A stretch of DNA of 60,000 nucleotides, from assembly GCF_026151205.1 (NCBI RefSeq), contig NC_087084.1:1838312-1898311 (forward strand). Reading direction: 5' to 3'. This document shows, one piece after another, positions 2,092 through 39,539 of this stretch. The notes under the pieces are model-generated. The model saw nothing but the letters and a program-made list of their open reading frames with translations, was not told the DNA's origin and did not search any database. Made by a program: the position numbers and the translations under genes. Position 1 is the stretch's first letter, and the number at the start of each line of letters is the position of its first letter. The stretch is from Bolinopsis microptera (Eukaryota > Ctenophora > Tentaculata > Lobata > Bolinopsidae).

Positions 2092-3560
2092 ATGAGTCTT
2101 ATTCGTTTTCTAAGAAGATGGCACATTCTAGTAAAATTTGGATTGTTTGTCCTAATTTTTGCTTCATTTATGACTGTAACAGTACTCATCAACTCAACAG
2201 TGACTTCCAACACTCCACAGGTAAGATCAAGACTAATTTCAATTAGAAAAATATCTGTTTGTCCATTGAGCTGAATGATTTAATTTGTCATTGCAATTTT
2301 TTCAATCTTAATAACTTTTGTTTACCATGTACCCCAATTTACACCCTATAAATATGGGTTTATTGTAAATGAATAAATTACTATTAATCATTATGTTTAC
2401 CTCTGGTGATGGTTGTTATCAACTTGACTAGTCGGATCAATGTTACAATGCAGTTACAATGCATTGTAACTGAGATAAGACTCATCTTACCTTACAAGAC
2501 ATATTTATAACGTACGAAATGTGGCGGTTTTCCGAAAATTTCGCCATATTTTCGAACCGCCAAAATTTCGGTCGTCGTAATAGAATCCGCCGCATTATCT
2601 TTTAGCTTATTTCAATGACTGTGCCTTCACTGCTTTATTTTGTTTCTAAAAAGTAATATCAAGTAAAATGAATAAATAAATTCTGGCATCTTGGGACAAA
2701 TTATCACCACACCAATGACGAATTGAATGTCAAGCAATACAGTTTAAATTTGCATTAAAATACATGTATGTGCTAACATGAAAGTCTTACAGTCTTAATA
2801 CAGACTAAGTTTGAACATGATTTTACTGAATTTCAGAATTTTCCTTACTGCTTACTGTCACAAAAAATGATGAAAAATACCCTTATTTTCTGTGACGTCC
2901 GAAATTTGACGGTTTTTGTTCAATTTCGCCATATTTTCGGACTGCCAAAATTTCGGTCGTCGCAAATTAGGCCGCCATAAATATGTCTTGTAAGGTATTC
3001 AACTGCTCAGCAAGTGTAAACTTCCTCCATTTTCCAGAACAGATACTCCAAAGACTCTGACACTAACGAAAGGGGACATGATCCCCCAACTGATGATGTA
3101 AAGCCTACAGTGAAGGTGGAAAAAGAAGATTGGCAGCCGGTTAGTTTTTTCTAATAAAATTTTTGTTGTCCATGACTTTATTTTGCTAATCAACAATTGA
3201 TAACCATATTATACTTGAGTTCATAAAAAACATTTATCAGGCAGCTTGGAAGGAATCTGATGATATCAAAAGAGTTCGAGAACAGTTACAGAATCATCTT
3301 AAGCAGGTGTTTTATCTTGCCAGTAATCAGTATTCTAGTTATGAAAGCTTTCGTTTTGGTGCTATTCACTTCACATGTTTTATTGATATAAATTGACTTT
3401 ACTCACAGTATTTCCCTTTATAAGCAATAACCATGCAGTTACCTGCCGGGGAGACAGAAGAAGAGGCTAAGAAACGTGGGTTTAATACCCACGGCTACAA
3501 TGCTAGACTAGCTGATACGACACCCCTTAATAGACATGTGTCTGACATGAGACACCCTAT
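2092..3560 (+). CDS. GALNT: GALNT exons 1-4: signal anchor, stem and start of the catalytic region
   Basis: Exon 1 encodes a short basic cytoplasmic tail (RFLRRW) and a hydrophobic anchor of about 24 residues, the usual type II Golgi topology. The ATG at 2092 was chosen because it alone gives this tail-anchor arrangement in phase with exon 2. Exons 2 and 3 are charged and low in hydrophobicity, typical of a stem. Exon 4 contains [13 protein letters not shown] and a D-M-R-H-P end, matching the conserved motif where GALNT catalytic domains begin. The exon 4 donor GTTAGT splits the Met-140 codon. Confidence 0.85.
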
Positions 3561-6500: not shown

Positions 6501-9500
6501 TGAGCTTGTCTAATTTTTTGTCTCATTTGTCCAAAATTTTTGTCCCTTTTGTCCCGTTTGTCCCTAGTATTGTCCATTTTGTCCCCAAAACACTGTCCTT
6601 CACAAAAAAATGTAAAAAAAGACAAAATGGACAAAATGGACAGTGGTACCCCCCCCCCCCCCCCCATTAGTCTACAAAACAAAAGAAAATGATGTTTCAA
6701 GTACAATTTCATACTACAACTGACAACATTCATCCCCCCTAATAACACTTACCAACATCTTCCAATATACACATTGATTTCTCCGGCAACCTCCCCTAGG
6801 GCTGCCATACCCCAGAGGTAGGTAGAGCATCCTCATGCTATCCTCTCGTGGGCCACCCAGGCCCAGCCTCTCTTTAAAAAAGTTAAAAAGTTGAATTTAA
6901 AAAATACTACAATATAATACTTGGTCGTAAGAAAGAAGACCAATGTCCCCAACTAACACACCTTCTAGTGTACACTGTACCCCTGTAATCTGTATGCTTA
7001 AATGTACACCCTCCCTAAAGGCAAGGCGTGTAATGACAGGGTAACTCGGTAAAAGGGACCGTACCACCGTAGTGTCTAATACAATAGTATCCGGTCCAAA
7101 ACTGAGATTGAATTTAAATTCAAACAACAATAAGTTATGTACGATAAGAGCGAAGTATAATTTTCTAGATCATCAGGTGGACCTTTGATATAAAACCATT
7201 TTGAATGCTGTACCATTATAACGTGTCGGAGGATGGGCTACCCTAAAAACTTACCTAAAGCTAGTATTGTGATCTTAGTAAATTAGATAATTAGTTAATT
7301 AGTTAACTGGTTAATTAGTTAATTAGATAATTAGTTAATTATATGTGGATTCTATCAGGTGTCGGAGGATGGGCTACCCTAGAAACTTACCTAAAGCTAG
7401 TATTGTGATCTTAGTAAATTAGATAATTAGTTAATTAGTTAACTGGTTAATTAGTTAATTAGATAATTAGTTAATTATATGTGGATTCTATCAGGTGTCG
7501 GAGGATGGGCTACCCTAGAAACTTACCTAAAGCTAGTATTGTGATCTTAGTAAATTAGATAATTAGTTAATTAGTTAACTGGTTAATTAGTTATTTAGAT
7601 AATTAGTTAATTATATGTGGATTCTATCAGGTGTCGGAGGATGGGCTACCCTAGAAACTTACCTAAAGCTAGTATTGTAATCTGCTTATTTAGTAAATTA
7701 TATAATTAGTTTATTATCTGATAATTAGTTAATTAGTTAATTATATGCTGATTCTGTCAGGTGCCGGAGGTTGGGCTACCCTAGAAACTTACCTAAAGCT
7801 AGTATTGTGATCTGCTTATTTAGTAAATTACTTAATTAGATAATTAGTTAATTAGATAATTAGTTAATTAGATAATTAGTTAATTAGATAATTAGCTAAT
7901 TATATGTGGATTCTGTCAGGTGCCGGAGGATGGGCTACCCTAGAAACTTACCTAAAGCTAGTATTGTGATCTGCTTCCACAACGAGGCACTATCTTCCCT
8001 TCTGAGGTGAGTGCGCATCTTCCTGTAATTTTAATATTATAAAGCTGATTTGTTGTTATTTGGCTGAATAATTATTGGTATATAGATCGCTAATTCATAT
8101 AATTTGGTCTTCACGTTTTATTTTTCTTAAACTCATTTCCCTCTTTCTACTTTGAATTATATTGACGTGCCCCAATATTTGCACAGGGAATATTCTCTAC
8201 GTGAGAAATCAGAAATGCTCAGAAATTATATGTATGTTACATATTCTGAATGTATTTATAGCTGTGGGGCCCCTTTATATTATACCTTCTACAACTTGTG
8301 GCATTGTTAATCCCTGATTTAACAAACCCTATTACTTCAGATCAGTACACAGTATATTAAACCGCTCACCTCCTGAGCTGTTGGAGGAGATTATACTGGT
8401 GGATGATGCTAGTCACAGGGAAACACACCGTGAGTTAATATGATTACTAATTAGTTAATTACTAATAAGTTAATTACTAATTTGTTAATTACTAATTAGT
8501 TAATTACTCAATAAGTTAATAAGGTTAAATGATCAGTAATTCAAGTGTCGAGTAATTTATTGCAGATTTCAAAAGTAAGGTTTCAAATAACTGGAGTTCC
8601 TATCTTAAGTAGTAGAATGCAGTACTAAGCCAACTTATCTCAGTTCAACGTGTTTAGTTAGTTTGTATATTAAAGTCATTATTGTAACGTATTGTAACGT
8701 ATTGTAACGTATTGTAACATATTATATCTTGTAATTGATAATATATATGTGGATTCTGGTAAGGCATATATTTGTGTGACAGTTACTTTCGTATTTGATT
8801 CCAGTCGAAGCTGATATTTTGTCAAATGTGCCTCCCCGCCAGAAAGCACATGATCTATACTGACATCTCAATAATAATTAATAATTAATTAGAATTAATT
8901 TACCATTAATTAATAGTTTCTTATATCTAAATTGCCTCTCTCAGCGGACACGTTTGCACCGCTGGACGAGTATGTTAAGAACCTCCCCAAAGTAAAGATT
9001 CTCAGACAAGATGCGAGAATGGGGCTGATCAGGGCTAGGTTAGCTGGGGCTGCCTACAGCAAGGGCCAGGTTAGTAATTAGCTTAGTGTCTATTTAAATA
9101 GCCGAGTGTTATGTCACGTGTATTATGTCACGTGTATTATGTCACGTGTATTATGTCACGTGTGATATAGATGCGAGAATGGGACTGATCAGGGCTCGGT
9201 TAGCCGGGCAGGTTAGTTATTAGCTTAGTGTCTATTTAAATAGCCGAGTGTTATGTCACGTGTATTATGTCACGTGTATTATGTCACGTGTATTATGTCA
9301 CGTGTATTATGTCACGTGTGATATAGATGCGAGAATGGGGCTGATCAGGGCTCGGTTAGCCGGGGCAGGTTAGTAATTAGCTTAATAGTGTCTATTTAAA
9401 TAGCCGAAATAATATAGACCAGTGCTCTATATAACTAGTCGTTAACCAGATCACCAGGTTACCAGGTTACCAGGTCACCAGGTTCACCAGGTTAACCAGG

Positions 9501-12500
9501 TTACCAGATCACCAGGTTACCAGGTTACCAGGTCACCAGGTTCACCAGGTTAACCAGGTTACCAGGTTAATCAGGTCACCAGGTTAATCAGGTCACCAGG
9601 TTAACCAGGTTCACCAGGTTAACCAGGTTACCAGGTTAGTCAGGTCACCAGGTTAACCAGGTCTATAATTATAGAAAGAGCTTTTTTCAGAGCTTCATCT
9701 CTTTATATATACTTCTTCGATTGTAATATCCTATTATAATGTAAGTTAGGAGGCATTCACACCACATTATTTGTACTAATTGTACGGCACATAAAGCTAT
9801 TGATGGTATGATAAAATAACTGACTGCAGGAATGTACCTTGTCAAAATTATTAGAGATATGTTACATATGTTACAGATTTAAATGAAATATTCCTCGTAG
9901 AAATAACACGCTCCAAATTCTCTAAATATCTAAAAGTTCTACAACGTACCGTCTTAACCATGTATTGGAAGCAGTGAAACTAAATAATGTGAAGAGCGTT
10001 GTGGTGGAGGGCGGGGTTGCAATGTGTCACATTTTAACCACCATATTATTATATAATAAACCAGCTCATCAACAAATTAATAGATTATGTCATTCTTTTA
10101 TTAGCACTTTAAAGTGTGACCAGCACCTACTTGATACTCCACACTTTAGTAACATTGTGGTTTATATTATATCACGTGATATGTCACGTGTTATCTCCGG
10201 GTGTGACCTACTCTGGCACCCTGCTACTTTAGTAGTAGTGTGTCACTCTGCTGTTAGGGATGGTTACATTGTGGTTTAGAAAATAGAAATTGTAAAATTA
10301 CTGAACTTAATGAACTTAAAGTGATCAGTGTCTTGATAGAGAGGCTTAGTGTAACATTACCTTTATACCCGGCCACGTGTATTATGTCACGTGTTATCTC
10401 GGCAGTTTACAAGAAGCCCGACTGGTCCATGGACCACTGGTCTATGGACCACTCTAGGTGGTCCATGGACCACTGGTCCATGGACCACCTTATCACTGAA
10501 TAAGTGGTCCATGGACCACTTTAACAAGGTCCATGGTATCAGCAAGCACTTTAGCTTCCATTATCATATGATCCAATCATACGGTAGACTTCTTCGCTAA
10601 GATTGCAAGATGTCAGTATTAACTACGAAAAACGTCGCAGAGATATATAAGATGAATTGTGGTACACAGCCATCGTCGTTTTCGATATACAAGACAGATA
10701 CTTGTACACCACTACTGTGTTTTCAATATGAGCCACTCACTACACAACGAAATCCATCGGATTACAAATACCACACGGAGGAACATGGAAGCAGCAATCC
10801 ATCAACAATATCCTCTTGTTTTGGAGATGGAGAAGAGTGGGACGAGCGCAAGGCAGGCTATTCAGCAGATTCAGATGCCCAGATCAACGTTCTACAAGTG
10901 GCGTTTTGTTGCAGAAATGAAGCTTGTCGACTCCTCACACTATCATCACCTAGCTGATCAGTTCAAGGGAACCAAGCTGTGTGATCAATGTAAATACTGT
11001 TTATTTGAGGACTCTGCCTCTCTCAGAAAGACAGAGGAGATGAGGAAGAGCTCCGACCTTCTCCCTCTATCTATGTAAATTGTATGTTATTTACTTTTGT
11101 AATACTTATTATACATATTGCAATCATAAAGATGCCAATTTCAATTGATAATAAACAAGAAATGCGGCCGCTTTTCTTTTGTGGATGGCCGCTCAATTTC
11201 CCGATCCGTGATGGCGTATTTATCATATTCCATACAACCTGGGGACGGCCCAGTCTTTACTGTTTATATAAACATGCAAATATGGCGAAGTGACATGCCG
11301 ACTGCCGAGCGCCGCCCAGTTAATATAATTCTATATTGAATTTGAAAATCGTGTATACTTCTAAGCTATGTAACCATATGTTTATTGTTTATGCAACCTG
11401 ACACGGATCTGTGCAAAATAGTAATACTAACTCAAAATAATAATAATATGCTATCAATTAGTGCCTAGTGGGATACGTACATGATGAAATTAATAATGTA
11501 CTTGGTTGGTTCAGCGCCGCGCGCCAACAATTATATAATTCAGATTATTACGCAAAATAACTTTGCGCAGGTAGTCACGTGGGCGATAACAGTGCTCGCA
11601 GGCTGAGGCACGTACGCACGCACGCACGCACGCACGCACGCTCGCAGGCACGGTCGCAAAGCTACCATATACCAAAAAAAACCTCGATCGCTAACCCTTG
11701 TCCTTGACTCTTTTGTGCCTTCGGCACGAGTCATGGATCGGGAAAAAATTAGATATAATCTTCATGAGTTGACTTATGGTGGTCCATGGACCACTGTACC
11801 TTGGTGAAGTGGTCCATGGACCACCTATAGTGGTCCATGGACCACTGGTCCATGGACCAGTCGAGCTTCTTGGAGACTGCCGTTATCTCCAGGGTGTAAC
11901 ATGTAAATTTGTTTTAAAGAAGGGGAAGCTTTGTGCTTGCTGGAGTATTAGAGTATACTGTATTATATGCTGTATATACTCTATATACTTGTATATACTG
12001 GAGTATACTGTATATACTGGAGTATACTGTATATACTTTATATACTGTATATACTGGAGTATACTGTATATACTGGAGTATACTGTATATACTGGAGTAT
12101 ACTGTATATACTGTATATACTGTATATACTGTATATACTGGAGTATACTGTATATACTGTATATACTGTATATACTGGAGTATACTGTATATACTGGAGT
12201 ATACTAACTTATTTACTACACGTATTACCCACGTACCTACAACTCTTAATACCATGTCACAGTGTCCAGTGTATTATATGTCACAGTATTTGAAGAGTGA
12301 AAATGTAACTCAGCACGTTTAATACTGTAATTTCTAAAAGTTAACCTACACGTGCTATAATATTATATAGCCTATATTCAATAACACGTGATCAATAACA
12401 CCTTGATAGTCTACACAGTCCACACATTCTAACACGTGATCAATAACACCTTAACAGTCTACACAGTCTACACATTGTAACACGTGATCAATAACACCTT

Positions 12501-13943
12501 AACAGTCTACACAGTCTACACATTGTAACACGTGATCAATAACACCTTAACAGTCTACACAGTCCACACATTGTAACACGTGATCAATAACACCTTAACA
12601 GTCTACACAGTCCACACATTGTAACACGTGATCAATAACACCTTGACAGTCTACACAGTCCACACATTGTAACACTAGTTTAGCAGGTGTCTTTAAAACA
12701 ATAGGCTTCTGTTCCCTTAACTTTATTAGATCTTACCTCTTATAACTGAGTTATCTTTCGTTTTATAACTGCGTTTAATTTAATTTTGTTAAATTTCTTT
12801 AAGTTAATGCTCCGCGGAATGTGTTACTAAAACGCGGGTTTAATTCATTTGGGGGGGGGGGTGCCACCCCCTCTTACATTCTACAGAGAATGTACAGAGG
12901 AAGAGCTGAAAATCTTACGCGTGAAATAGTTTAATTTGGATCAGGTGTTAAACTTTATTAATTCTATAAATCATATTAACTTTGTAGTAGTTAAAACAAC
13001 CCAGCAGTGAAAATGTTACATGTTTAGTGTTTACATGAGTGTATTCTTATATTGAGTAATGATTATTCAAGTTACGTAAATCTAATCGGAACTGCACTAT
13101 TGAATAGTCTCTAGTCGGCGCGGTATTGCAAACGGGGAATCATTACAATGGTCGCTTTCTGATTCCAATAATTTGTAGCGAGTCCTACTGAGAGTATGTG
13201 CTGTCATCACGGCTTTGTCGCACTTTGTCGCATCGTGTCTATGATGTAGGTTTAATTGTTAAGTCTCCTGTAATAGCTAGGTTTCTGTTCATTGGCTTCT
13301 AGCGGATCTAGGCTATACAATAAAACTTGCTGAAACTTAGAGAATTGTAGACTTCTAGAAAACACTCAGAACGGAGTTATGTTTGAAGAATTTTAACACC
13401 ACTGTTAAGTGTAAACCGTGTTCAATGTAATTGTTCTATGAAAAAGTTATGATGATAACCTAGTTGCTATTTATCAACAAATATTTATCACAACGAAAGT
13501 TACTCATATTTTCCTTTTTTTCTTCATATTTTCCTTTTTTTCTTGGACAGTTCTATTATTCTAATGACACGGCTGAGAAGTTTTAAGATCTTAGCAAATG
13601 TTTCCAATGTATAGTTCATCATCATCACATACGAGGGGAAGAATGTTTAACACACAATTTAATGTAATACAATATAAATTCCAGTCTGTTGATGAAGTAT
13701 AAACTGAGCCGGAGAACCTGTTTGTTTGAAAATGTGCCCCTCCCTTCTCCCCCAAATACAAAACTTGCTGAAACTTACAAACTATAAAATGGAGCACTCC
13801 TCTAATTAGTAAGTACAGCTATGGTAAAGTATGGTATCAGCAATATTTATTTTTCTATCTTAGATTTTTGCCGAAAATTGATGAAAATTATGCTAATTTT
13901 GCCCATTCATTCCTCAACTTTTAGTCAGATGGGTATCGAAAGG

Positions 13944-13982
<39 letters not shown>

Positions 13983-22900: not shown

Positions 22901-25900
22901 TAAAACAGATTGACTGACGCTAACTTAACCCAGGCTAGATTACACCAAGACAGATGGTAGCAAGGGTGGTATACACACCACGTGACACTAAAACATATTG
23001 ACTGACGCTAACTTAACCCAGGCTAGATTACACCAAGACAGATGGTAGCAAGGGTGGTATACACACCACGTGACACTATAAAACAGATTGACTGACGCTA
23101 ACTTAACCCAGGCTAGATTACACCAAGACAGATGGTAGTAAGGGTGGTATACACACCACGTGACACTAAAACAGATTGACTGACGCTAACTTAACCCAGG
23201 CTAGATTACACCAAGACAGATGGTAGTAAGGGTGGTATTCACACCACGTGACACTAAAACAGATTGACTGACGCTAACTTAACCCAGGCTAGATTACACC
23301 AAGACAGATGGTAGCAAGGGTGGTTTACACACCACGTGACACTAAAACATATTGACTGACGCTAACTTAACCCAGGCTAGATTACACCAAGACAGATGGT
23401 AGCAAGGGTGGTTTCAACAGTATCCACACCACGTGACACTAAAACAGATTGACTGACGCTAACTTAACCCAGGCTAGATTACACCAAGACAGATGGTAGC
23501 AAGGGTGGTTTTAATTGGGCTCTGGTCTTTAAATGGGTACCAATGAACGAGACAGAGCGCTCCAAGTACTACAACTGGGATCCTTTCGAGTGAGTTAAAC
23601 TTACTTTTGGGTTGTTTTTGTAACGCTTTACTTCTTGAGATCGTTTACTTAACAATATAACAATTTCCCAGGAGGTTTATTTTCCGTTTCCTCAGATCTC
23701 CCACCATGGCAGGAGGTTAATTTTCCGTTTCCTCAGATCGCCCACCATGGCAGGAGGTTTATTTTCCGTTTCCTCAGATCGCCCACCATGGCAGGAGGTT
23801 AATTTTCCGTTTCCTCAGATCTCCCACCATGGCAGGAGATTAATTTTCCGTTTCCTCAGATCGCCCACCATGGCAGGAGGTTAATTGTCCGTTTCCTCAG
23901 ATCTCCCACCATGGCAGGAGGTTAATTTTCCGTTTCCTCAGATCGCCCACCATGGCAGGAGGTTAATTTTCCTTTTCCTCAGATCGCCCACCATGGCAGG
24001 AGGTTAATTGTCCGTTTCCTCAGATCGCCCACAATGGCAGGAGATTAATTTTCTGTTTCCTCAGATCGCCCACCATGGCAGGAGGTTAATTTTCCGTTTC
24101 CTCAGATCGCCCACCATGGCAGGAGGTTTATTTTCCGTTTCCTCAGATCGCCCACCATGGCAGGAGGTTAATTTTCCGTTTCCTCAGATCTCCCACCATG
24201 GCAGGAGATTAATTTTCCGTTTCCTCAGATCGCCCACCATGGCAGGAGGTTAATTGTCCGTTTCCTCAGATCTCCCACCATGGCAGGAGGTTAATTTTCC
24301 GTTACCTCAGATCGCCCACCATGGCAGGAGGTTAATTTTCCGTTTCCTCAGATCGCCCACCATGGCAGGAGGTTAATTGTCCGTTTCCTCAGATCGCCCA
24401 CAATGGCAGGAGATTAATTTTCTGTTTCCTCAGATCGCCCACAATGGCAGGAGGTTAATTGTCCGTTTCCTCAGATCGCCCACCATGGCAGGAGATTAAT
24501 TTTCCGTTTCCTCAGATCGCCCACAATGGCAGGAGATTAATTTTCTGTTTCCTCAGATCGCCCACCATGGCAGGAGGTTAATTTTCCGTTTCCTCAGATC
24601 GCCCACCATGGCAGGAGGTTAATTGTCCGTTTCCTCAGATCTCCCACCATGGCAGGAGGTTAATTTTCCGTTTCCTCAGATCTCCCACCATGGCAGGAGG
24701 TTAATTTTCCGTTTCCTCAGATCTCCCACCATGGCAGGAGGTTAATTTTCCGTTTCCTCAGATCTCCCACCATGGCAGGAGGTTAATTTTCCGTTTCCTC
24801 AGATCTCCCACCATGGCAGGAGGTTAATTGTCCGTTTCCTCAGATCTCCCACCATGGCAGGAGGTTAATTTTCCGTTTCCTCAGATCTCCCACCATGGCA
24901 GGAGGTTAATTGTCCGTTTCCTCAGATCTCCCACCATGGCAGGAGGTTAATTTTCCGTTTCCTCAGATCTCCCACCATGGCAGGAGGTTAATTTTCCGTT
25001 TCCTCAGATCTCCCACCATGGCAGGAGGTTAATTTTCCGTTTCCTCAGATCTCCCACCATGGCAGGAGGTTAATTTTCCGTTTCCTCAGATCTCCCACCA
25101 TGGCAGGATGTTAATTGTCCGTTTCCTCAGATCTCCCACCATGGCAGGAGGTTAATTTTCTGTTTCCTCAGATCGCCCACCATGGCAGGAGGTTAATTTT
25201 CCGTTTCCTCAGATCGCCCACCATGGCAGGAGGTTAATTGTCCGTTTCCTCAGATCTCCCACCATGGCAGGAGGTTAATTGTCCGTTTCCTCAGATCTCC
25301 CACCATGGCAGGAGGTTAATTTTCCGTTTCCTCAGATCTCCCACCATGGCAGGAGGTTAATTTTCCGTTTCCTCAGATCTCCCACCATGGCAGGAGGTTA
25401 ATTTTCCGTTTCCTCAGATCTCCCACCATGGCAGGAGGTTAATTTTCCGTTTCCTCAGATCTCCCACCATGGCAGGAGGTTAATTGTCCGTTTCCTCAGA
25501 TCTCCCACCATGGCAGGAGGTTAATTTTCCGTTTCCTCAGATCGCCCACCATGGCAGGAGGTTAATTGTCCGTTTCCTCAGATCTCCCACCATGGCAGGA
25601 GGTTAATTGTCCGTTTCCTCAGATCTCCCACCATGGCAGGAGGTTAATTGTCCGTTTCCTCAGATCTCCCACCATGGCAGGAGGTTAATTTTCCGTTTCC
25701 TCAGATCTCCCACCATGGCAGGAGATTAATTTTCCGTTTCCTCAGATCGCCCACCATGGCAGGAGGTTAATTGTCCGTTTCCTCAGATCTCCCACCATGG
25801 CAGGAGGTTAATTTTCCGTTTCCTCAGATCGCCCACCATGGCAGGAGGACTATTCGCAATTCACCGTGACACATTCTACGAATACGGAACATACGATGAT

Positions 25901-28900
25901 GAAATGAGTATTTGGGGCGGGGAAAACCTCGAGATGAGCTTCCGGGTAACTACATATAATAAAATACTAGTGCAATTCTGTAATTATGTAATTATGTAAT
26001 TATGTAATTATGTAATTATGTAATTATATCCTCGTCAGTAAACAGCGTTAAACAGTACTATAAAGTATACAGTCCAAGTAACGATGTAGTGCCAGTGTAA
26101 CTAGTGTGTTACAGTTGTTGCTGTGCTTATTATTATACTAGTGTAACCCGTGCCTACGGCCGGGACTTCACTAACGCAGTTAAAATGCAAAAGTATAAAC
26201 CCGCCTATTATATTCGAAAACACGCATTACATTTTCGTAGTTAAAATGGTGCGAAAGTATGAACTCGCTCAGTCCAAACAGACCGCAATTTAATTCTGAA
26301 TGCCCCTCACGTATCTGATAGTAATACTTGAAAGTCAATCTTGAGGTCCCCTGCCAAATTACCTAATTATATAGCAATCTATTATGAGGGGAGAGCGAGA
26401 GAGCTGGGAGAGTACACACACACACACACACACACTAGTATCACATTTGGGTCACAAAATGATCAATTAAACCACTTACCGCCGACCGATTTAAAAAACC
26501 TTTATCATTTGGCTTCGTCAGAGTTTTCTCGGCACTACCGAAAAAACCAGCCCCGTAACTCTTGACAATATTCTTGATTAAGCCGTTAGGAAATTACACG
26601 CGAACGAACGAACATGCATCTTGAGATTATTAGTATAGATTTAACTTGTAGTACATTTTGTATTACTATACAACTTACTATTTAACTTCATGTTGTTGAG
26701 CACCACATTGAATAACATGAATGTTGTCAATAGTTATAAATTAGTGTACTTTCCGTCTGGAGCATCGGCTTCATGGCTTAGTTGGTTAAAGCGCCTGTCT
26801 AGTAAACAGGAGATCCCGAGTTCGAATCTCGGTGAAGCCTTTTGTTACTTTTTTTTCTATAATAATGTTTCATAAATTTTACTTTACACCATATTCCACA
26901 ATCATGACTGCAGGTAATCGGCTTAGTAATTATTAGTCTCTAATTTCACACAAGTTCTTGGTATCAAGTTACACACATTACATAGCGCACATTAGATAGC
27001 GCACATTACATAGCGCACATCAGATAGCGCACATTACATAGCGCACATTAGATGACCCATTGGACTGCAGCGAGTATGTGTGATACAATAACTTTTCAAT
27101 CTAGAACGATACGTTTACAATTCACATGACACGATGTTAAACATACGCTTTTACATAATTATACATTATTCTCGTAATTACTTCCTAGATTACGTCACTA
27201 TGAGTTACTCAATGCTGGTTGTTTTATTCTAATTGATACACGTTATTTCCAACATCAGCAGTGTATATCAAATCAATTAACAAACAAGTCACATTATTAT
27301 TGATTAACTACTCAACTAACTACATAATTGGTAGATAATTACCCAGATAATTAAATAATTAATTAATTAACAACAATTAATTATCAGCTGTGGATGTGTG
27401 GAGCTAAGTTGGAGATAGTGCCCTGTTCCCGTGTTGGACACATATTCCGGCTAAAGAACCCTGTATCATTTCCAGGGGGAACTAGTAACACTGTCAACCG
27501 GAACAACAAACGTTTAGCCGAGGTTTGTTGTACTGTGTTCTGATTGGTTAGTTTGTGTCACGTGGTGTGAATACTGTGCTCTGATTGGTTAGTTTGTTGT
27601 CTTGTTGATTTTAAGGAGATTGAACCTCATTTTCTTTAGAACTTTGTAACTTTCCTTGAATATTAAGACAAATGTTTACCCCGGCACAGAAGAACTAATT
27701 ACTTGATTAATCCCACTAATTAATTATACTAATTACCCACTAATCAATTACCAGGTCTGGATGGACGAGTTTAAGGAGATATTCTACTGGTACAGCCCGG
27801 GAATGGACACACGCGACGCGGGGGACGTTTCAGGTTATTAGTTACTTACTGTTAACTGTTAGTCTTGCTTATTTAAGTATTTATAATTAATTAAATAATT
27901 TAAATACTTTAAATATTTCAGCTTGTTCATTAACTAGTTGAACTATTTAAAACCCTGGCCCCAAAACCCCCCTGGCCCCCCCCCCCCCCCATCACTCCTC
28001 ATGCTCCCACCCAGGACGATTGAATCTGAGAGGAAGACTTCAATGTAAGAGTTTTAAGTGGTTCCTTGACACAGTGTATCCTGACTTATTTGTTCCTTCC
28101 CTCCATTACTACGCCAGAGGAGCTGTTAGTGTTTTATTTGTTGTTTTAATTATTATTTAGTAGTTCAAGTTTTAAATATAAGTAATACGCACATTTTTGG
28201 GTTTGTTTGCGCTAATTTTAAGAAGTCTATTTGTTCTTCTTCACGATAAATGATCAAGCAGGGATATTTGTCTTTCCTAAGGAAAGTATTATTCTGACTA
28301 GACCATCAACAAGTAATTTACTAATATTAGTAATACTAGTAATATTACTAATATTACTAATATTACTAATATTACTAATACTACTAATATTACTAATATT
28401 ACTAATACTACTAATAATACTAATATTACTAATATTACTAATATTACTAATATTACTAATATTACTAATATTACTAATACTACTAATAATACTAATATTA
28501 CTAATATTACTAATATTACTAATATTACTAATATTACTAATATTACTAATATTACTAATATTACTAATATTACTAATATTACTAATATTACTAATATTAC
28601 TAATATTACTAATATATTACTAATATTACTAATATTACTAATATTACTAATATTACTAGTAATAACATTACAACAGGTGTCTAACCCAGCCTCTAACTTG
28701 TGTTTGGACACTTTTGGAGCAGCAGACCATTACCACACTGTAAAGGCGGGACTTTATTACTGCCACAATCAGGGTGGCAATCAAGTAAGTTAATTAGTTG
28801 ATATTGTTAATGTTATTAAATATTTAATGAGGATACAGCGTTTTCAAAGATAGGTACAGATACGTGCAGGTATGGTGTATTGAATGGTAAGTTGATTAAT

Positions 28901-31900
28901 TACATAATTAACTAATTACCTAATTACATAATTAACTTATTACATAATTACATAATTAACTAATTACATAATTAACTAATTACATAATTAACTAATTACA
29001 TAATTAACTAATTACATAATTAACTAATTACATAATTAACTAATTACAGGTGTGGTTATTCACGCCAGATTGCAGGATTCTACAAGGAGACTTCTGTCTA
29101 GAGTTAACAGGTTCTCGTAAAGGAGAACCTGTACTGGGGCTCTGCAAGAAGAAGACCCTGTACCAGTCTTGGAAATATGATGATACTGTTAGTTTAGTTC
29201 GTTAGTTAGTTTTAGTTACCTAATTAGTTATAGTTAAGTAATTTATTAATGGAAATATGATGATACTGTTAGTTTAGTTCGTTAGTTAGTTGTAATTACC
29301 TAATTAGTTATAGTTAAGTAATTTATTAATGGAAATATGATGATACTGTTAGTTTAGTTCGTTAGTTAGTTGTAATTACCTAATTAGTTATAGTTAAGTA
29401 ATTGATTAATGGAAATATGATGATACTGTTAGTTTTAGTTCGTTAGTTAGTTGTAGTAACCTAATTAGTTATAGTTAAGTAATTTATTAATGGAAATATG
29501 ATGATACTGTTAGTTTTAGTTCGTTAGTTAGTTGCAGTTACCTAATTAGTTATAGTTAAGTAATTGATTAATGTTTAGGATATGTTCTACTTTCTGATTC
29601 AGTTGTTGAAGCTTAAATACAGTTCATCGGTTCAACACCATTACAACTTTAATTAAGTTTAATAACGTTAAATAATAACTTATTAAGTTAAACTAAATCT
29701 CCCCCAGACAAAGCAGATACGACACGTAAACTCCGGCCTATGTCTGGACCGGGGCGTGAGGAAATCCGACGAGTTCGTGCTAACAAGCAAATGTAATGGT
29801 TCACCCGGACAGATTTGGGAGGTTTCCATTCTTAAGAGGTACGTTAGTAAGCAAATGTAATGGTTCACCCGGACAGATTTGGGAGGTATCCATTCTTAAG
29901 AGGTACGTTAGTGACCAAATGTAATGGTTCACCCGGACAGATTTGGGAGGTATCCATTCTTAAGAGGTACGTTAGTAATCAAATGTAATGGTTCACCCGG
30001 ACAGATTTGGGAGGTATCCATTCTTAAGAGGTACGTTAGTAAGCAAATGTAATGGTTCACCCGGACAGATTTGGGAGGTCTCCATTCTTAAGAGGCCAGG
30101 TACGTTAGTGACCAAATGTAATGGTTCACCCGGACAGATTTGGGAGGTTTCCATTCTTAAGAGGTACGTTAGTGACCAAATGTAATGTTTCACCCGGACA
30201 GATTTGGGAGGTTTCCATTCTTAAGAGGTACGTTAGTAAGCAAATGTAATGGTTCACCCGGACAGATTTGGGAGGTTTCCATTCTTAAGAGGTACGTTAG
30301 TAAGCAAATGTAATGGTTCACCCGGACAGATTTGGGAGGTTTCCATTCTTAAGAGGTACGTTAGTAAGCAAATGTAATGGTTCACCCGGACAGATTTGGG
30401 AGGTTTCCATTCTTAAGAGGTACGTTAGTAAGCAAATGTAATGGTTCACCCGGACAGATTTGGGAGGTTTCCATTCTTAAGAGGTACGTTAGTAAGCAAA
30501 TGTAATGGTTCACCCGGACAGATTTGGGAGGTTTCCATTCTTAAGAGGTACGTTAGTGACCAAATGTAATGGTTCACCCGGACAGATTTGGGAGGTTTCC
30601 ATTCTTAAGAGGTACGTTAGTAAGCAAATGTAATGGTTCACCCGGACAGATTTGGGAGGTTTCCATTCTTAAGAGGTACGTTAGTAAGCAAATGTAATGG
30701 TTCACCCGGACAGATTTGGGAGGTTTCCATTCTTAAGAGGTACGTTAGTAAGCAAATGTAATGGTTCACCCGGACAGATTTGGGAGGTTTCCATTCTTAA
30801 GAGGTACGTTAGTAAGCAAATGTAATGGTTCACCCGGACAGATTTGGGAGGTATCCATTCTTAAGAGGTACGTTAGTAAGCAAATGTAATGGTTCACCCG
30901 GACAGATTTGGGAGGTTTCCATTCTTAAGAGGTACGTTAGTAAGCAAATGTAATGGTTCACCCGGACAGATTTGGGAGGTTTCCATTCTTAAGAGGTACG
31001 TTAGTGACCAAATGTAATGGTTCACCCGGACAGATTTGGGAGGTATCCATTCTTAAGAGGTACGTTAGTAAGCAAATGTAATGGTTCACCCGGACAGATT
31101 TGGGAGGTTTCCATTCTTAAGAGGTACGTTAGTAAGCAAATGTAATGGTTCACCCGGACAGATTTGGGAGGTTTCCATTCTTAAGAGGTACGTTAGTAAG
31201 CAAATGTAATGGTTCACCCGGACAGATTTGGGAGGTTTCCATTCTTAAGAGGTACGTTAGTGACCAAATGTAATGGTTCACCCGGACAGATTTGGGAGGT
31301 TTCCATTCTTAAGAGGTACGTTAGTGACCAAATGTAATGGTTCACCCGGACAGATTTGGGAGGTTTCCATTCTTAAGAGGTACGTTAGTGACCAAATGTA
31401 ATGGTTCACCCGGACAGATTTGGGAGGTTTCCATTCTTAAGAGGTACGTTAGTGACCAAATGTAATGGTTCACCCGGACAGATTTGGGAGGTATCCGTTC
31501 TTAAGAGGTACGTTATTAAGCAAATGTAATGGTTCACCCGGACAGATTTGGGAGGTTTCCATTCTTAAGAGGTACGTTAGTGACCAAATGTAATGGTTCA
31601 CCCGGACAGATTTGGGAGGTTTCCATTCTTAAGAGGTATGTTAGTAAGCAAATGTAATGGTTCACCCGGACAGATTTGGGAGGTTTCCATTCTTAAGAGG
31701 TACGTTAGTAAGCAAATGTAATGGTTCACCCGGACAGATTTGGGAGGTTTCCATTCTTAAGAGGTACGTTAGTAAGCAAATGTAATGGTTCACCCGGACA
31801 GATTTGGGAGGTATCCATTCTTAAGAGGTACGTTAGTAAGCAAATGTAATGGTTCACCCGGACAGATTTGGGAGGTTTCCATTCTTAAGAGGTACGTTAG

Positions 31901-32894
31901 TAAGCAAATGTAATGGTTCACCCGGACAGATTTGGGAGGTTTCCATTCTTAAGAGGTACGTTAGTAAGCAAATGTAATGGTTCACCCGGACAGATTTGGG
32001 AGGTATCCATTCTTAAGAGGTACGTTAGTAAGCAAATGTAATGGTTCACCCGGACAGATTTGGGAGGTATCCATTCTTAAGAGGTACGTTAGTAAGCAAA
32101 TGTAATGGTTCACCCGGACAGATTTGGGAAGTATCCATTCTTAAGAGGTACGTTAGTGACCAAATGTAATGGTTCACCCGGACAGATTTGGGAGGTATCC
32201 ATTCTTAAGAGGTACGTTAGTGACCAAATGTAATGGTTCACCCGGACAGATTTGGGAGGTATCCATTCTTAAGAGGTACGTTAGTAAGCAAATGTAATGG
32301 TTCACCCGGACAGATTTGGGAGGTATCCATTCTTAAGAGGTACGTTAGTGAGCAAATGTAATGGTTCACCCGGACAGATTTGGGAGGTTTCCATTCTTAA
32401 GAGGTACGTTAGTAAGCAAATGTAATGGTTCACCCGGACAGATTTGGGAGGTTTCCATTCTTAAGAGGTACGTTAGTGAGCAAATGTAATGGTTCACCCG
32501 GACAGATTTGGGAGGTTTCCATTCTTAAGAGGTACGTTAGTGACCAAATGTAATGGTTCACCCGGACAGATTTGGGAGGTTTCCATTCTTAAGAGGTACG
32601 TTAGTGACCAAATGTAATGGTTCACCCGGACAGATTTGGGAGGTTTCCATTCTTAAGAGGTACGTTAGTGACCAAATGTAATGGTTCACCCGGACAGATT
32701 TGGGAGGTTTCCATTCTTAAGAGGTACGTTAGTAAGCAAATGTAATGGTTCACCCCAATCTGCGAGTTAATGTTATTTTTAAAACTTACGTCACTTTTTA
32801 ACTTATAGTACACAGAGTTTTGTGTCTTTACCACCAACTACCTAATCAATACTAATTTCCACCACATTACAGTGATGTGAAGCAAGTGTGCTGA
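2092..32894 (+). CDS. GALNT: Polypeptide N-acetylgalactosaminyltransferase (GT27), 17 exons, 600 aa
   Basis: Transfers GalNAc from UDP-GalNAc to Ser/Thr of proteins in the Golgi, the first step of mucin-type O-glycosylation. Exons: 2092-2220, 3038-3139, 3241-3306, 3439-3560, 7920-8006, 8341-8429, 8945-9069, 17135-17259, 23473-23589, 25828-25945, 27388-27522, 27755-27833, 28015-28124, 28677-28784, 29050-29187, 29708-29838, 32873-32894. Lengths sum to 1,803 nt and every junction keeps phase with GT-AG ends. The protein has a signal anchor (about 9-33), HNEA (160-163), VDD (189-191), the D-S-H metal motif (246-248), WGGEN (350-354), a metal-binding His (378) and a C-terminal ricin-type lectin domain. 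The length is normal for the family. I built this model by hand from splice sites and family motifs. The subfamily is not assigned. Confidence 0.93.
2490..2995. mobile_element. MITE with TA target duplication, in GALNT intron 1
   Basis: The ends are inverted repeats beginning CCTTACAAGACATATTTAT. Both ends are flanked by TA (2488-2489 and 2996-2997), as expected of Tc1/mariner-type insertion. Inner sequence near each end is also inverted and shares the words AATTTCG and GGTCGTCG. No transposase frame is present, so it is non-autonomous. The element stops only about 40 bp before exon 2. Confidence 0.75.
3917..5718 (-). CDS. GT12-like beta-1,4-N-acetylgalactosaminyltransferase with N-terminal beta-trefoil; nested in GALNT intron 4
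   Basis: The main exon (5480 to stop 3917) is open for 520 codons. Its first part carries three ricin-type beta-trefoil repeats, visible as C-V/L-x plus Q/F-x-F spacing (for example [15 protein letters not shown]). The second half resembles the B4GALNT (GM2/GD2 synthase) family: [13 protein letters not shown], then [20 protein letters not shown] with the metal-binding DDD, then [15 protein letters not shown], and a conserved ILEHKD block. Such enzymes add GalNAc in beta-1,4 linkage to glycans or glycolipids in the Golgi. The main exon has no upstream ATG. A candidate first exon at 5718-5615 (ATG, 34 codons, hydrophobic anchor-like) joins it in phase through a 134-nt GT-AG intron, but this acceptor is weak. 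Substrate and true 5' end are unknown. Confidence 0.8.
5792..5901 (+). mobile_element. 5' end fragment of a mariner-type element
   Basis: Begins right after TA with CAGGGTGGGCCAAAAGTCAG and continues with the same TAGCTCAGTCACTGAGTG word as the complete element at 51671-52437. Homology stops at about 5901, where a GACAAAA simple repeat begins. No 3' end is seen nearby. Confidence 0.7.
5900..6050. repeat. GACAAAA/GGGACAAAATGG low-complexity array
   Basis: Degenerate repeats of GACAAAA and GGGACAAAATGG. The reverse-complement motif recurs at 6505-6640, so the two blocks face each other around a 450-bp core. Confidence 0.8.
6280..6354 (+). pseudogene. Remnant of the C terminus of the retroelement ORF
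   Basis: Encodes [13 protein letters not shown], which matches [13 protein letters not shown] near the end of the 226-1805 ORF. The remainder is not recognisable. It is a short decayed copy of the same family inside GALNT intron 4, flanked by the opposed GACAAAA and TTTGTCC arrays. Confidence 0.6.
6505..6665. repeat. TTTGTCC array plus 15-C tract
   Basis: TTTGTCC/ATTTTGTCC repeats are the inverted counterpart of 5900-6050. They are followed by GGTACC and a run of about 15 C that could be an assembly weak point. Confidence 0.8.
6666..7222. other. Intron 4 stretch with no gene recognised
   Basis: AT-rich spacer. I see no conserved frame, splice-compatible exon or transposon end. Confidence 0.4.
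7223..7919 (+). repeat. Tandem array of exon 5 splice acceptors with truncated exon 5
   Basis: Copies of the first 53 or so nt of exon 5 begin at 7223, 7359, 7495, 7631 and 7761, before the real exon at 7920. Spacings are 136, 136, 136, 130 and 159 bp. All but the first keep the CAG acceptor after GGATTCTRTCAG. Each copy departs from exon 5 after GTGATCT and runs into AT-rich TTAGTTAATTAG DNA, where the GALNT frame meets a stop. None has the exon 5 donor. Confidence 0.9.
7920..9069 (+). CDS. GALNT: GALNT exons 5-7: first half of the catalytic GT-A fold
   Basis: Exon 5 (7920-8006) encodes [20 protein letters not shown]. Exon 6 (8341-8429) encodes the [10 protein letters not shown] strand. Exon 7 (8945-9069) encodes [20 protein letters not shown] and ends KGQ. 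These are the conserved UDP-GalNAc-binding blocks of GT27 enzymes. Introns 5 and 6 are short; intron 6 carries small TTAATTACTAA repeats (8445-8520) and GTATTGTAAC repeats (8690-8720). Confidence 0.92.
9070..9420 (+). repeat. Exon 7 donor duplications with CACGTG subrepeats
   Basis: Two truncated copies of the exon 7 end (9170-9211 and 9326-9368) retain GCGAGAATGGG...CTGATCAGGGCT and a CAG|GTTAG donor. They lack the AAY-SKG codons present in the real exon. Between them lie TATTATGTCACGTG repeats. Both copies would offer a 5' splice site downstream of the real one at 9070. Confidence 0.85.
9440..9665. repeat. CCAGGTTAACCAGGTCACCAGG satellite
   Basis: About 18 imperfect copies of a 9-13 bp unit built on CCAGGTTA and CCAGGTCA. 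GGTCA/GGTTCA words resemble nuclear-receptor half sites, but simple-repeat origin explains them as well. Confidence 0.85.
9666..10392. other. Intron 7 spacer before the 8-bp-TSD transposon
   Basis: No supported gene. At 10171-10197 two CACGTG-containing words are followed by GTTATCTCCGGGTGTGACC. This is a paralogue of the site into which the next element inserted, so it serves as an empty-site control. Confidence 0.5.
10659..11078 (+). CDS. Small helix-turn-helix protein inside the 10401-11881 transposon
   Basis: 139 codons from the first ATG; an ATG at 10728 would give 116. The centre reads [23 protein letters not shown], shown here as two parts: [13 protein letters not shown] then [10 protein letters not shown]. 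This is a classic homeodomain-like or Psq/transposase-type helix-turn-helix with the P-R-S-T-F-Y recognition helix. [16 protein letters not shown] follows, then two C-x-x-C-like cysteines. It could bind the palindromes at the element ends. No catalytic DDE triad is visible. A frame-shifted overlapping ORF at 10610-10957 is probably a shadow. Confidence 0.55.
   Translation: MVHSHRRFRYTRQILVHHYCVFNMSHSLHNEIHRITNTTRRNMEAAIHQQYPLVLEMEKSGTSARQAIQQIQMPRSTFYKWRFVAEMKLVDSSHYHHLADQFKGTKLCDQCKYCLFEDSASLRKTEEMRKSSDLLPLSM
11604..11652. repeat. ACGC/CGCA microsatellite
   Basis: About ten ACGC units inside the transposon, followed by GCTCGCAGGCACGG. Confidence 0.85.
11940..12210. repeat. GTATACTGTATATACTGGA satellite
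   Basis: Palindromic GTATAC words alternate in 12-bp and 18-bp spacing for about 270 bp. Several frames stay open through it by arithmetic alone. The transcribed strand could form many small hairpins. Confidence 0.9.
12383..12671. repeat. 48-bp tandem repeat with an E-box
   Basis: Six copies, each starting AACACGTGATCAATAACACC. The 48-bp period is exact between starts at 12383, 12431 and 12479. Each unit has one CACGTG and one TGATCA palindrome. Confidence 0.9.
12672..13945. other. Intron 7 stretch without recognised features
   Basis: No convincing gene or transposon end. Contains a G10 run at 12851 and a duplicated CATATTTTCCTTTTTTTCTT (13507-13544). Confidence 0.4.
13946..13982. repeat. 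37-nt poly-C tract
   Basis: Uninterrupted C run. It could form an i-motif, with a G-quadruplex on the other strand. Its true length is uncertain because such runs are often misassembled. Confidence 0.9.
14518..16390. repeat. 39-bp satellite, about 48 units
   Basis: Unit TTCAAATCATRTGTAGRAAY... with exactly constant 39-bp period. Variation is limited to three transition positions (A/G in CATRTG, and GGAAC, GGAAT or GAAAT). On the minus strand a 653-codon frame (16474-14513) reads the unit as a 13-residue repeat, [13 protein letters not shown] and variants. Because 39 is divisible by 3, an open frame follows automatically if one unit lacks a stop, so coding is not shown. It lies within GALNT intron 7. 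Confidence 0.9.
16391..17134. other. End of intron 7
   Basis: Three short copies of GTGGCACGGCTTGCCCCCAT and variants (16421-16478). Otherwise no feature is recognised until the exon 8 acceptor, a good polypyrimidine tract ending CTCTCGCAG. Confidence 0.5.
17135..17259 (+). CDS. GALNT: GALNT exon 8: DxH metal-binding exon
   Basis: Encodes [20 protein letters not shown], with Asp-246 and His-248 of the Mn2+-binding D-x-H motif, and then [12 protein letters not shown]. Most GALNTs have C-E-C or similar after the D-S-H; here it is I-E-A, which is unusual but keeps the metal residues. It is isolated between an 8.1-kb and a 6.2-kb satellite intron. Confidence 0.93.
17462..21170. repeat. Satellite of CCAAT-box and CACGTG modules in intron 8
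   Basis: Two modules alternate: CACACCACGTGACACAAACC with CAACCAATYAGAGCACAGTA, and CACCACGTGACACTAAAACAG with ATTGACTGACGATAACTTAACAG. Longer blocks repeat too; for example identical stretches start near 17745, 18755 and 20161, a higher-order structure. The words CCAATCAG and CACGTGAC are good NF-Y and USF/MITF-type sites. The CTAAC/GATAAC...AACAG part resembles the exon 9 branch site and acceptor. Six 65-codon frames on the minus strand are by-products of the period. Confidence 0.92.
21171..23472 (+). repeat. Tandem array of exon 9 splice acceptors with truncated exon 9
   Basis: 28 decoy copies of CTTAACCCAG|GCTAGATTAC plus the next 25 or so nt of exon 9 precede the real exon at 23473. Each is preceded by TGACTGACGCTAAC, a good branch-point context, and most by the CCACGTGACACTATAAAACAG module. 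Spacing alternates between about 50 and 90 bp. After the copied exon tip each unit returns to satellite, where the GALNT frame reaches TGA. Confidence 0.93.
23473..23589 (+). CDS. GALNT: GALNT exon 9
   Basis: Encodes [20 protein letters not shown] followed by [18 protein letters not shown]. The GGFNW...FKW block is a GT27 signature. It is bounded by the exon 9 array upstream and the exon 10 array downstream. The donor is GTGAGT at 23590. Confidence 0.93.
23670..25827 (+). repeat. 41-bp array of exon 10 splice acceptors with truncated exon 10
   Basis: The first decoy exon start is 23696 and the real exon 10 starts at 25828. The difference, 2,132 bp, is exactly 52 x 41. Each unit is a polypyrimidine tract (TTTTCCGTTTCCTCAG) plus the first 21 nt of exon 10 (ATCGCCCACCATGGCAGGAGG). 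The copied exon tip is then followed by TTAA, which puts TAA in the GALNT frame. Variants (TCTCCC/TCGCCC, TTTTCC/TTGTCC, AGATTAA) are shuffled along the array. This fills nearly all of intron 9. Confidence 0.95.
25828..25945 (+). CDS. GALNT: GALNT exon 10: WGGEN catalytic loop
   Basis: Encodes [20 protein letters not shown] and [19 protein letters not shown]. The AGGLF and WGGEN-x-E blocks are the most conserved part of GT27 and bind donor and acceptor. The donor is GTAACT. Confidence 0.95.
25975..26030. repeat. AATTATGT microsatellite
   Basis: Six to seven units of TAATTATG in intron 10. Confidence 0.85.
26138..26639 (-). mobile_element. Non-autonomous Helitron relative, minus strand
   Basis: On the minus strand it ends with a near-perfect hairpin CCCGGCCGTAGGCACGGG then TTACACTAG|T, a Helitron 3' terminus. 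The inside carries an AC microsatellite and matches the 52978-53746 Helitron in the ACCACTTACCGCC...GATTTAAAAAA and CCGAAAAAACCAG words. The 5' TC end is placed at 26639 by position only. Confidence 0.7.
26767..26840 (+). tRNA. tRNA-Thr (anticodon AGT)
   Basis: Acceptor stem GGCTTCA/TGAAGCC, D arm with TGGCTTAGTTGG (A box), anticodon stem CCTGT/ACAGG with loop CTAGTAA giving anticodon AGT, and T arm with GGTTCGA-like AGTTCGAATCTCG (B box). No intron. The discriminator base is T. A T4 run directly follows and T8 lies at 26849, serving as Pol III terminators. The body closely matches animal tRNA-Thr(AGT). It lies on the sense strand of GALNT intron 10. Confidence 0.97.
26978..27052. repeat. 16-bp repeat TAGCGCACATTASATA
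   Basis: Five imperfect copies of TAGCGCACATTA in intron 10. Confidence 0.8.
27388..27833 (+). CDS. GALNT: GALNT exons 11-12: end of the catalytic domain
   Basis: Exon 11 (27388-27522) encodes [20 protein letters not shown] with the metal-binding His-378, then [11 protein letters not shown]. Exon 12 (27755-27833) encodes [19 protein letters not shown]. These match the W-x-C-G, S-R-V-G-H and W-x-D-E-x-K/F blocks of GT27. Confidence 0.94.
27541..27595 (-). repeat. Single inverted copy of the intron 8 satellite, in intron 11
   Basis: The reverse complement reads ACCAATCAGAGCACAGTATT then CACACCACGTGACACAAACT. It matches the 17.5-21 kb satellite with only C/T differences. In the pre-mRNA this segment could pair with any of the many sense copies in intron 8. 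Confidence 0.9.
28015..28784 (+). CDS. GALNT: GALNT exons 13-14: linker and first lectin repeat
   Basis: Exon 13 (28015-28124) encodes [20 protein letters not shown], the conserved linker between catalytic and lectin domains. Its acceptor follows a C14 tract at 27977. Exon 14 (28677-28784) begins the ricin-type domain, with NLCLDT and CHNQGGNQ, the C-L-D and Q-G-G-N-Q features of repeat alpha. Confidence 0.92.
28318..28662. repeat. AATATTACT satellite in intron 13
   Basis: About 38 copies of a 9-bp unit, ACTAATATT, with a few ACTACTAATA variants. Divisible by 3, so it opens long Leu/Ile frames on both strands. Confidence 0.93.
28895..29049. repeat. AATTAACTAATTACAT repeat up to the exon 15 acceptor
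   Basis: About nine units of 16 bp. The last unit, TAATTACAG, is the real acceptor of exon 15, so the acceptor is a one-base variant of the repeat word TAATTACAT. Here the repeat contains no exon sequence. Confidence 0.88.
29050..29187 (+). CDS. GALNT: GALNT exon 15: second lectin repeat
   Basis: Encodes [20 protein letters not shown] and [22 protein letters not shown] and Q-S-W are the ricin-type repeat features. The donor is GTTAGT at 29188. Confidence 0.92.
29171..29575 (+). repeat. 80-bp array of exon 15 splice donors
   Basis: The exon 15 tip GGAAATATGATGATACT with its GTTAGT donor recurs four more times. Donors are at 29188 (real), 29268, 29348, 29428 and 29509, so the period is 80-81 bp. 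Confidence 0.93.
29708..29838 (+). CDS. GALNT: GALNT exon 16: third lectin repeat
   Basis: Encodes [16 protein letters not shown] and [20 protein letters not shown] and Q-I-W complete the lectin domain. It is the first unit of a 46-copy array, and the first donor (29839) is the only one that follows the exon directly. Confidence 0.92.
29788..32752 (+). repeat. 64-bp array of exon 16 splice donors
   Basis: Unit: the last 54 or so nt of exon 16 (from AAGCAAATGTAATGGTTCAC to CCATTCTTAAGAG) plus GTACGTTAGT. Donors run from 29839 to 32724, giving 45 extra copies; one unit has a 5-bp insertion (CCAGG, near 30092). Units differ mainly in AAGCA versus GACCA and GTTTCC versus GTATCC. Reading through the first donor reaches TAA within the second unit. 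Confidence 0.95.
32873..32894 (+). CDS. GALNT: GALNT exon 17: terminal exon and stop
   Basis: After the acceptor ACATTACAG the split Ser codon is completed, then DVKQVC and TGA (32892-32894). A Cys near the C terminus is common in this family. Confidence 0.85.
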
Positions 32895-39430: not shown

Positions 39431-39539
39431 GTCTGAAAGGAAAATACATTTATAATGTTTAAGGATGATAACTCGTCAAAAATATGTGGTAGACATTAGG
39501 TTGCATTTAAATTGAGAGAGAGGACCGCGCTTACAATTA

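Follow-up and report, generated by a model that had tools for sequence, protein, structure and literature searches.

Minisatellite-like duplications of intron-exon boundaries have been described in the amphioxus globin genes BflGb6 and BflGb9 (PMC3087553), and the term "mirages" for such structures comes from the amphioxus Adh3 locus (Canestro et al. 2002, as cited in PMC3087553). Both kinds of boundary are hit in amphioxus, RT-PCR suggests regular splicing, and mirages have been put forward as a route to intron gain (PMC3087553). Human genes located in segmental duplications carry internal tandem repeats (minisatellites) at exon-intron boundaries (PMC2812944). In the Rogers model, a new intron arises when an AGGT proto-splice site is duplicated in tandem (PMC3087553, PMC2891723), and G-quadruplex motifs are reported to be about 3-fold enriched near splice junctions (PMC9065059). 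In the open-access literature, covered mostly through titles and abstracts, we found no report of boundary arrays in ctenophores or of minisatellite enrichment at exon edges.

Here we analyze a 60,000-nucleotide stretch of contig NC_087084.1 of the ctenophore Bolinopsis microptera (the window), in which a GALNT gene carries tandem arrays across several of its splice sites. A preliminary description of the window had described these arrays in one gene and as a kind not known to its author. They are in fact of a known kind, the mirages of amphioxus as portrayed in PMC3087553, and are found in many genes of this genome. We consider it probable that they are junction-spanning minisatellites, each started by a microhomology-joined tandem duplication that included a splice site, then expanded, and removed together with the intron.

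The GALNT Gene and the Arrays at Its Splice Sites

Exons 2-17 of the GALNT gene (n = 16) were placed by hand and then recovered with a purpose-written spliced protein-to-DNA aligner, which corrected the exon 13 end (by 4 bp) and filled in the rest of exon 17. Exon 1 was not located, so that 30 boundaries were tested rather than 32. The joined exons encode 561 residues with no internal stop, and the product matches GALNT1 in a PDB search (E 9.5e-145, residues 62-549) and the Pfam families PF00535 (GT2), PF02709 (Glyco_transf_7C), and PF00652 (ricin-type lectin); the coding sequence is intact, as had been claimed. Coordinates of the exons and arrays are collected in Table 1.

Table 1. Exons and tandem arrays of the GALNT gene in the window, and boundary-crossing arrays of other genes
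Feature	Window position	Strand	Description
GALNT gene, exons 2-17	3038..32893	+	spliced alignment, PDB GALNT1, Pfam
GALNT exons 2-5	3038-3139, 3241-3306, 3439-3560, 7920-8006	+	
GALNT exons 6-9	8341-8429, 8945-9069, 17135-17271, 23473-23589	+	
GALNT exons 10-13	25828-25945, 27388-27522, 27755-27833, 28015-28124	+	
GALNT exons 14-17	28677-28784, 29050-29187, 29708-29838, 32873-32893	+	exon 17 = coding part
Exon 5 acceptor array	7223..7972	+	unit 136 bp; real site 7920 = last copy; TRF
Exon 7 donor array	9009..9407	+	real donor 9069; limits by eye
Intron 8 array	17472..21148	+	41-bp satellite mixed with pieces of exon 9 3' splice region
Exon 9 acceptor array	21160..23511	+	unit 88-90 bp (52 bp variant); 28 extra sites; real site 23473
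Exon 10 acceptor array	23669..25848	+	41 bp x 53; 52 extra sites; real site 25828
Edge-abutting array, non-crossing	28314..28658	+	9 bp x 38; stops 18 bp before exon 14
Edge-abutting array, non-crossing	28897..29048	+	16 bp x 9.5; stops one base before intron 14 end, beside exon 15
Exon 15 donor array	29170..29573	+	80-81 bp x 5; real site 29187
Exon 16 donor array	29785..32755	+	64 bp x 46; real site 29838
Myosin L008			donor array; TRF
AP-1 gamma L015			donor array; 45 bp x 5.3; TRF
GALNT paralog L019			acceptor array; TRF
GALNT paralog L020			donor array; TRF
GALNT paralog L021			donor array; TRF
Kinesin L033			acceptor array; by eye
Kinesin L037			donor array and acceptor array; TRF
Kinesin L038			donor array; TRF
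Kinesin L039			donor array; 33 bp x 52; TRF
Kinesin L042			donor array; TRF

Combining TRF with the exon map, we found that tandem arrays cross six of the 30 mapped exon edges, namely the acceptors of exons 5, 9, and 10 and the donors of exons 7, 15, and 16. All six arrays of the preliminary description exist, out of 30 tested boundaries and not the 32 it gave, and its copy numbers agree with ours to within one. An extra copy was scored as a site if it kept the AG or GT and an exon tip with at most one mismatch in 8. By this test the arrays of exons 5, 7, 9, 10, 15, and 16 hold 4, 0, 28, 52, 4, and 44 extra sites, respectively, a total of 132 decoys. The 28, 52, and 4 extra copies reported for exons 9, 10, and 15 all keep both site and tip. 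Exon 5 has five extra units as described, the fifth without its AG, and of the 45 at exon 16 one fails the test; the two copies reported for exon 7 were found, both without 16 bp of the exon tip. It had also been remarked that the real site lies at the exon-body end of each array; this holds, and it is plain geometry, since the remainder of the exon is next to the terminal copy alone.

The two downstream copies of the exon 7 donor lie at approximately 9170 and 9326, with a spacing of about 156-160 bp, and the array contains an internal 14-bp repeat, TTATGTCACGTGTA. At exon 9, a composite array (17472-23511) ends at the acceptor. Its acceptor-bearing unit consists of a satellite piece, CTAAC, CCCAG, and 36-37 bp of exon tip, and is a fusion of these splice-region elements with part of a 41-bp satellite, the unit of the intron 8 array, which is dispersed over several chromosomes (among the matches listed, on C2, C4, C9, C10, C12, and C13). 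The 64-bp unit of exon 16 comprises 54 bp of exon and 10 bp of intron. The units of exons 10 and 16, the two tested, each match a single locus in the genome, the GALNT gene of the window; a dispersed mobile unit was accordingly rejected as the source of these two arrays.

Several other features of the window were noted. The dispersed 41-bp satellite unit contains CACGTG, and what by eye is a short reverse copy of it lies at about 27524-27600, a few bases past the exon 11 donor. Within intron 4 of the GALNT gene, a 527-codon open frame on the opposite strand (3917-5500, -) has a GT2 domain and weakly matches the ricin-type lectin domain; it appears to be a glycosyltransferase gene without introns that sits inside the multi-exon one. 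Intron 10 holds a tRNA-Thr gene (anticodon AGT; 26767-26840, +). A 528-codon open frame (219-1805, +) looks by eye like a piece of a reverse-transcriptase-type element, and an ankyrin-repeat open frame of 252 codons (38717-39475, -) contains a 99-bp coding tandem repeat.

Boundary Arrays and Edge Clustering in Other Genes

Other genes of the genome were chosen by Pfam or GALNT protein matches with several exons in a compact region; repeats played no part in the choice. The first set comprised 22 models (five GALNT paralogs, eight myosins, four CCT chaperonins, and five adaptin or coatomer genes) and the second 19 (16 kinesins and three G-alpha genes), giving a sample of 41 homology-based gene models from six families, with 549 boundaries, or 579 with the window gene. 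Exons shorter than 40 bp were dropped before counting, except in the window gene, as were parts of the GALNT paralogs P4 and P5a; P5b (L026) was aligned and left out of the counts. Four adaptin models were built with PDB segments, the acceptor position of GALNT paralog P1 was set by eye, and the true donor of kinesin L038 is, by eye, probably 6 bp before the modelled one.

TRF detected 10 boundary-crossing arrays in nine of the 41 genes (Table 1), which provides a rate for this genome of 10 per 549 boundaries. By eye the count is 12-13, in 10 of the 41 genes, the additions being an interrupted acceptor array in L033, a 112-unit acceptor array in L039 that is borderline, and, in L020, the decayed copy of a donor. 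The idea that such arrays are confined to one gene is therefore contradicted by nine other genes, or 10 if L033 is included. Comparison of exon tips with the adjacent intron gave scores of at least 13 at 10 of 354 boundaries (19 genes, window gene included); five of these lie in the window gene and the remaining five are, by eye, duplicated exon tips. Such scores were reached by one of 305 inner-exon 30-mers and by none of 354 tips compared with another intron. For the kinesin and G-alpha set, five of 214 tips scored at least 12, against one of 193 inner controls (score 12).

The preliminary description had held that satellite growth at random should not prefer splice junctions. In our null model, a unit of the array's length is placed randomly in the same intron, with the array collapsed to one unit and crossing allowed. 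Among arrays with a period of at least 20 in the other 41 genes, 10 of 60 cross a boundary versus 8.46 expected (P 0.33), close to the area-based expectation and without clear excess; for periods of at least 30 there is a mild excess (10 of 30 versus 5.72 expected, P 0.035). For the window gene, with the same minimum period of 20, the count is 6 crossing among 14 versus 1.97 expected, and the P of 0.0007 is descriptive only, the gene having been picked for this feature; the limits of the exon 7 array, with 8990 taken as its start, and the unit of exon 9 were set by hand for this test. An earlier gene-level null gave 5 of 17 versus 2.64 for the window gene (P 0.09) and 5 of 40 versus 4.62 for the other 22 genes; with the exon 7 array missed by TRF and the exon 9 composite split, it was replaced by the intron-conditioned null. 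For the kinesin and G-alpha set (19 genes), 4 of 25 arrays crossed versus 3.82 expected.

Arrays that either cross a boundary or lie within 20 bp of one number 30 of 60 in the other genes versus 16.8 expected, and an edge-clustering test was therefore run. The 41 genes have 50 non-crossing intron arrays with a period of at least 20; 20 of these are no more than 20 bp from a splice site, versus 8.05 expected. The same counts are obtained with 40 genes (P 5e-7), L030 being left out. This kinesin model, whose exon layout is a near-copy of that of L029, was also left out of the counts by distance, by identity, and at periods of at least 8, and of the displaced-boundary, coverage, and 12-mer tests. 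What stands of the claimed junction preference is mainly the crowding of intron arrays at exon edges, crossing in the other genes showing no clear excess.

The L029 (1393-2454) and L030 (1279-1400) pair is itself worth recording: one intron differs by about 940 bp, and the longer version has arrays towards both ends whose units, TAAGACAACATT and TTGTCTTAATG, look complementary and resemble the inverted, repeat-rich ends of an inserted element.

The edge excess persists at scores of at least 100, with one array per intron, in introns up to 400 bp, and in introns longer than 400 bp, and it is seen in each of three gene groups, at only P 0.03 in the GALNT paralogs alone. With periods of at least 8 and introns without an open frame (which excluded one array), 43 of 121 arrays lie within 20 bp versus 15.9 expected in 40 genes. 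The observed-to-expected ratio is 2.3-3.2 in the first 20 bp, 1.1 at 20-30 bp, below 1 at 30-120 bp, and 1.5 at 120-200 bp. The excess is greatest among the youngest arrays, those of at least 95% identity (20 of 50 versus 4.9), an argument against the mere persistence of old arrays. When boundaries were displaced inward by 25-100 bp, TRF arrays gave no significant excess. A 12-mer detector found 36 of 113 versus 13.4 at true boundaries, no excess at displacements of 40 or 60 bp, and a weak one at 25 bp (12 of 75 versus 5.55, P 0.005). In the window gene, clustering at edges is seen for arrays of period 8-19 (5 of 22 versus 1.1) but not for non-crossing arrays whose period is 20 or more (0 of 9 versus 0.08 expected). 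These counts support an association between arrays and the exon edges of this genome, chiefly on the intron side.

One explanation of this pattern is that exon edges are mutational hot spots for array birth, for example through breaks linked to transcription or splicing, with mirages as the part that reaches into the exon. The crowding of array ends within 20 bp of splice sites and its sharp fall beyond, its strength among arrays of high identity, its loss with TRF at displaced boundaries, and the agreement of the 12-mer detector all speak for it. Against it, the crossing arrays themselves show no clear excess, the 12-mer detector retains its weak signal at 25 bp, and the gene models are homology-based and drawn from 41 genes in six families. 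Moreover, arrays cover 3% of positions at the boundary, about 11% at 25 bp, and 11-12% from there to 100 bp (more deep in long introns), and 10 arrays cross true boundaries versus 54 crossing boundaries displaced by 25 bp. Because coverage and crossing drop at the boundary, the pile-up may in part mark the place at which arrays are made to end; selection appears to remove some of the crossing, and the intron side next to the exon is array-rich. We regard this explanation as possible and distinctly less probable than the one we prefer. The same tentative standing applies to its broadest form, in which exon edges genome-wide would be birth hot spots, enriched two- to threefold within 20 bp, sharply limited to the splice site, and more so for the youngest arrays, with about 2% of edges bearing duplicated splice sites. 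If it were true, a process tied to splicing or transcription would set the start sites of minisatellites and furnish a steady supply of spare splice sites.

Origin of the Arrays and Choice among Splice Sites

For the birth of junction-spanning minisatellites and the choice among their splice sites, we infer the following course. Tandem duplications in this genome would arise all along introns, more densely in the last 20 bp beside exons; a short one, joined at a few base pairs of microhomology, would by chance take in an exon tip and splice site, and would then expand, by slippage or by unequal exchange, up to 53 units. The copy beside the exon body would stay intact and be picked by the spliceosome, and the array would leave with the intron. 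The exon 9 array is a fusion of part of the dispersed 41-bp satellite with the acceptor.

Microhomology at the joint, measured as array length minus whole units and by eye, is 1-7 bp in the six arrays that can be read cleanly: 7 bp at exon 10 (CAGGAGG), 4 in myosin L008, 2 at exon 15, 2 in GALNT paralog P2, and 1 in each of the kinesins L037 and L042. These excess lengths are consistent with simple tandem duplication and subsequent expansion. No clean duplication joint shows in the exon 5, 9, and 16 arrays, which counts against the duplication model, as do the six crossings of the window gene, more than its own arrays predict, and the mild excess of crossing at periods of at least 30 elsewhere; random duplication also leaves the clustering at edges unexplained.

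Four of the six array-bearing introns have a position and phase common to at least one of five GALNT paralog models. Intron 8, which carries the exon 9 array, has a counterpart in none of the four paralogs that cover the region, a further point against this course, and intron 16 is covered by none. Because position and phase are shared with paralogs, at least four introns predate their arrays; intron gain by tandem duplication was rejected as an account of the locus, the array-bearing intron not being new in four of six cases.

Provided that the spliceosome uses the exon-body copy, the coding sequence is unharmed because that copy is intact. The exon-adjacent sites yield the intact GALNT frame. 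On the gene models, use of any of the 132 decoys would bring a premature stop into the product (132 of 132), and 47 of the 132 change its length by a multiple of three; the harm from the exon 16 decoys may be small because the last exon has only a few codons. It is therefore probably the exon-adjacent site that is used, to judge from the reading frame, with the whole array leaving with the intron. The splicing machinery can recognize an exon as a unit, a process termed exon definition, and the choice may be made in this way. These arrays offer a natural test of how the spliceosome chooses among up to 53 near-identical sites, of which one alone gives an uninterrupted frame.

Selection for the extra splice sites, as backups or regulators of splicing, was among the causes proposed earlier. 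Of six large arrays, two from the window gene and four from other genes, five have unchanged splice dinucleotides (0 of 546 cells), as would be expected if these were maintained; in the sixth (L019), 4 of 60 cells differ. This apparent conservation by cell count is gone once columns are counted, variable columns numbering 2 of 12 for splice dinucleotides (both in L019) versus 38 of 254 for other positions (P 0.70). The decoys are neither visibly destroyed nor specially kept, each leads to a premature stop, and the tested paralogs have no such arrays at the shared intron positions, all of which makes selection for them very improbable.

That the arrays are artefacts of assembly is, if anything, slightly harder still to credit: long, near-identical arrays are difficult to assemble, but variants are distributed among the copies, and there are short two-copy cases that an assembly should resolve easily. 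Gene conversion or re-insertion from cDNA, another of the causes proposed earlier, would account for the exon tips in the units and is contradicted by the intron sequence they also contain, which is absent from cDNA, so that we give it practically no credence.

Comparison with Mirages and Related Systems

As junction-spanning minisatellites that probably began as tandem duplications, the GALNT arrays belong beside the amphioxus mirages and extend these from amphioxus to a ctenophore. As in the amphioxus cases set out in PMC3087553, the units span the exon-intron boundary, 5' and 3' boundaries are both hit (here three acceptors and three donors), and many copies of AG or GT are present (here 132 decoys). 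In both systems units measure 10 to 160 bp and the gene is a working one, putatively so for GALNT to judge from its intact frame. The differences are of scale and scope. BflGb6 has 3 and 6 units in two haplotypes, whereas the ctenophore genome has up to six arrays per gene and up to about 50 extra sites; here, too, a rate has been estimated over 549 boundaries, in a host that is not an amphioxus. If the clustering at edges holds genome-wide, the birth of minisatellites would be tied to exon boundaries and to the origin of new splice sites.

The human repeats described in PMC2812944 are likewise minisatellites at exon-intron boundaries. According to that report, they change how recent paralogs are spliced and give rise to new introns in them; in GALNT, by contrast, four of the six introns sit at positions that paralogs share, and the frame stays open only with the original site. 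With the Rogers model, as outlined in the sources cited above, the GALNT arrays share a tandem duplication involving a splice motif, but no new intron has formed in GALNT, and the units carry existing intron sequence.
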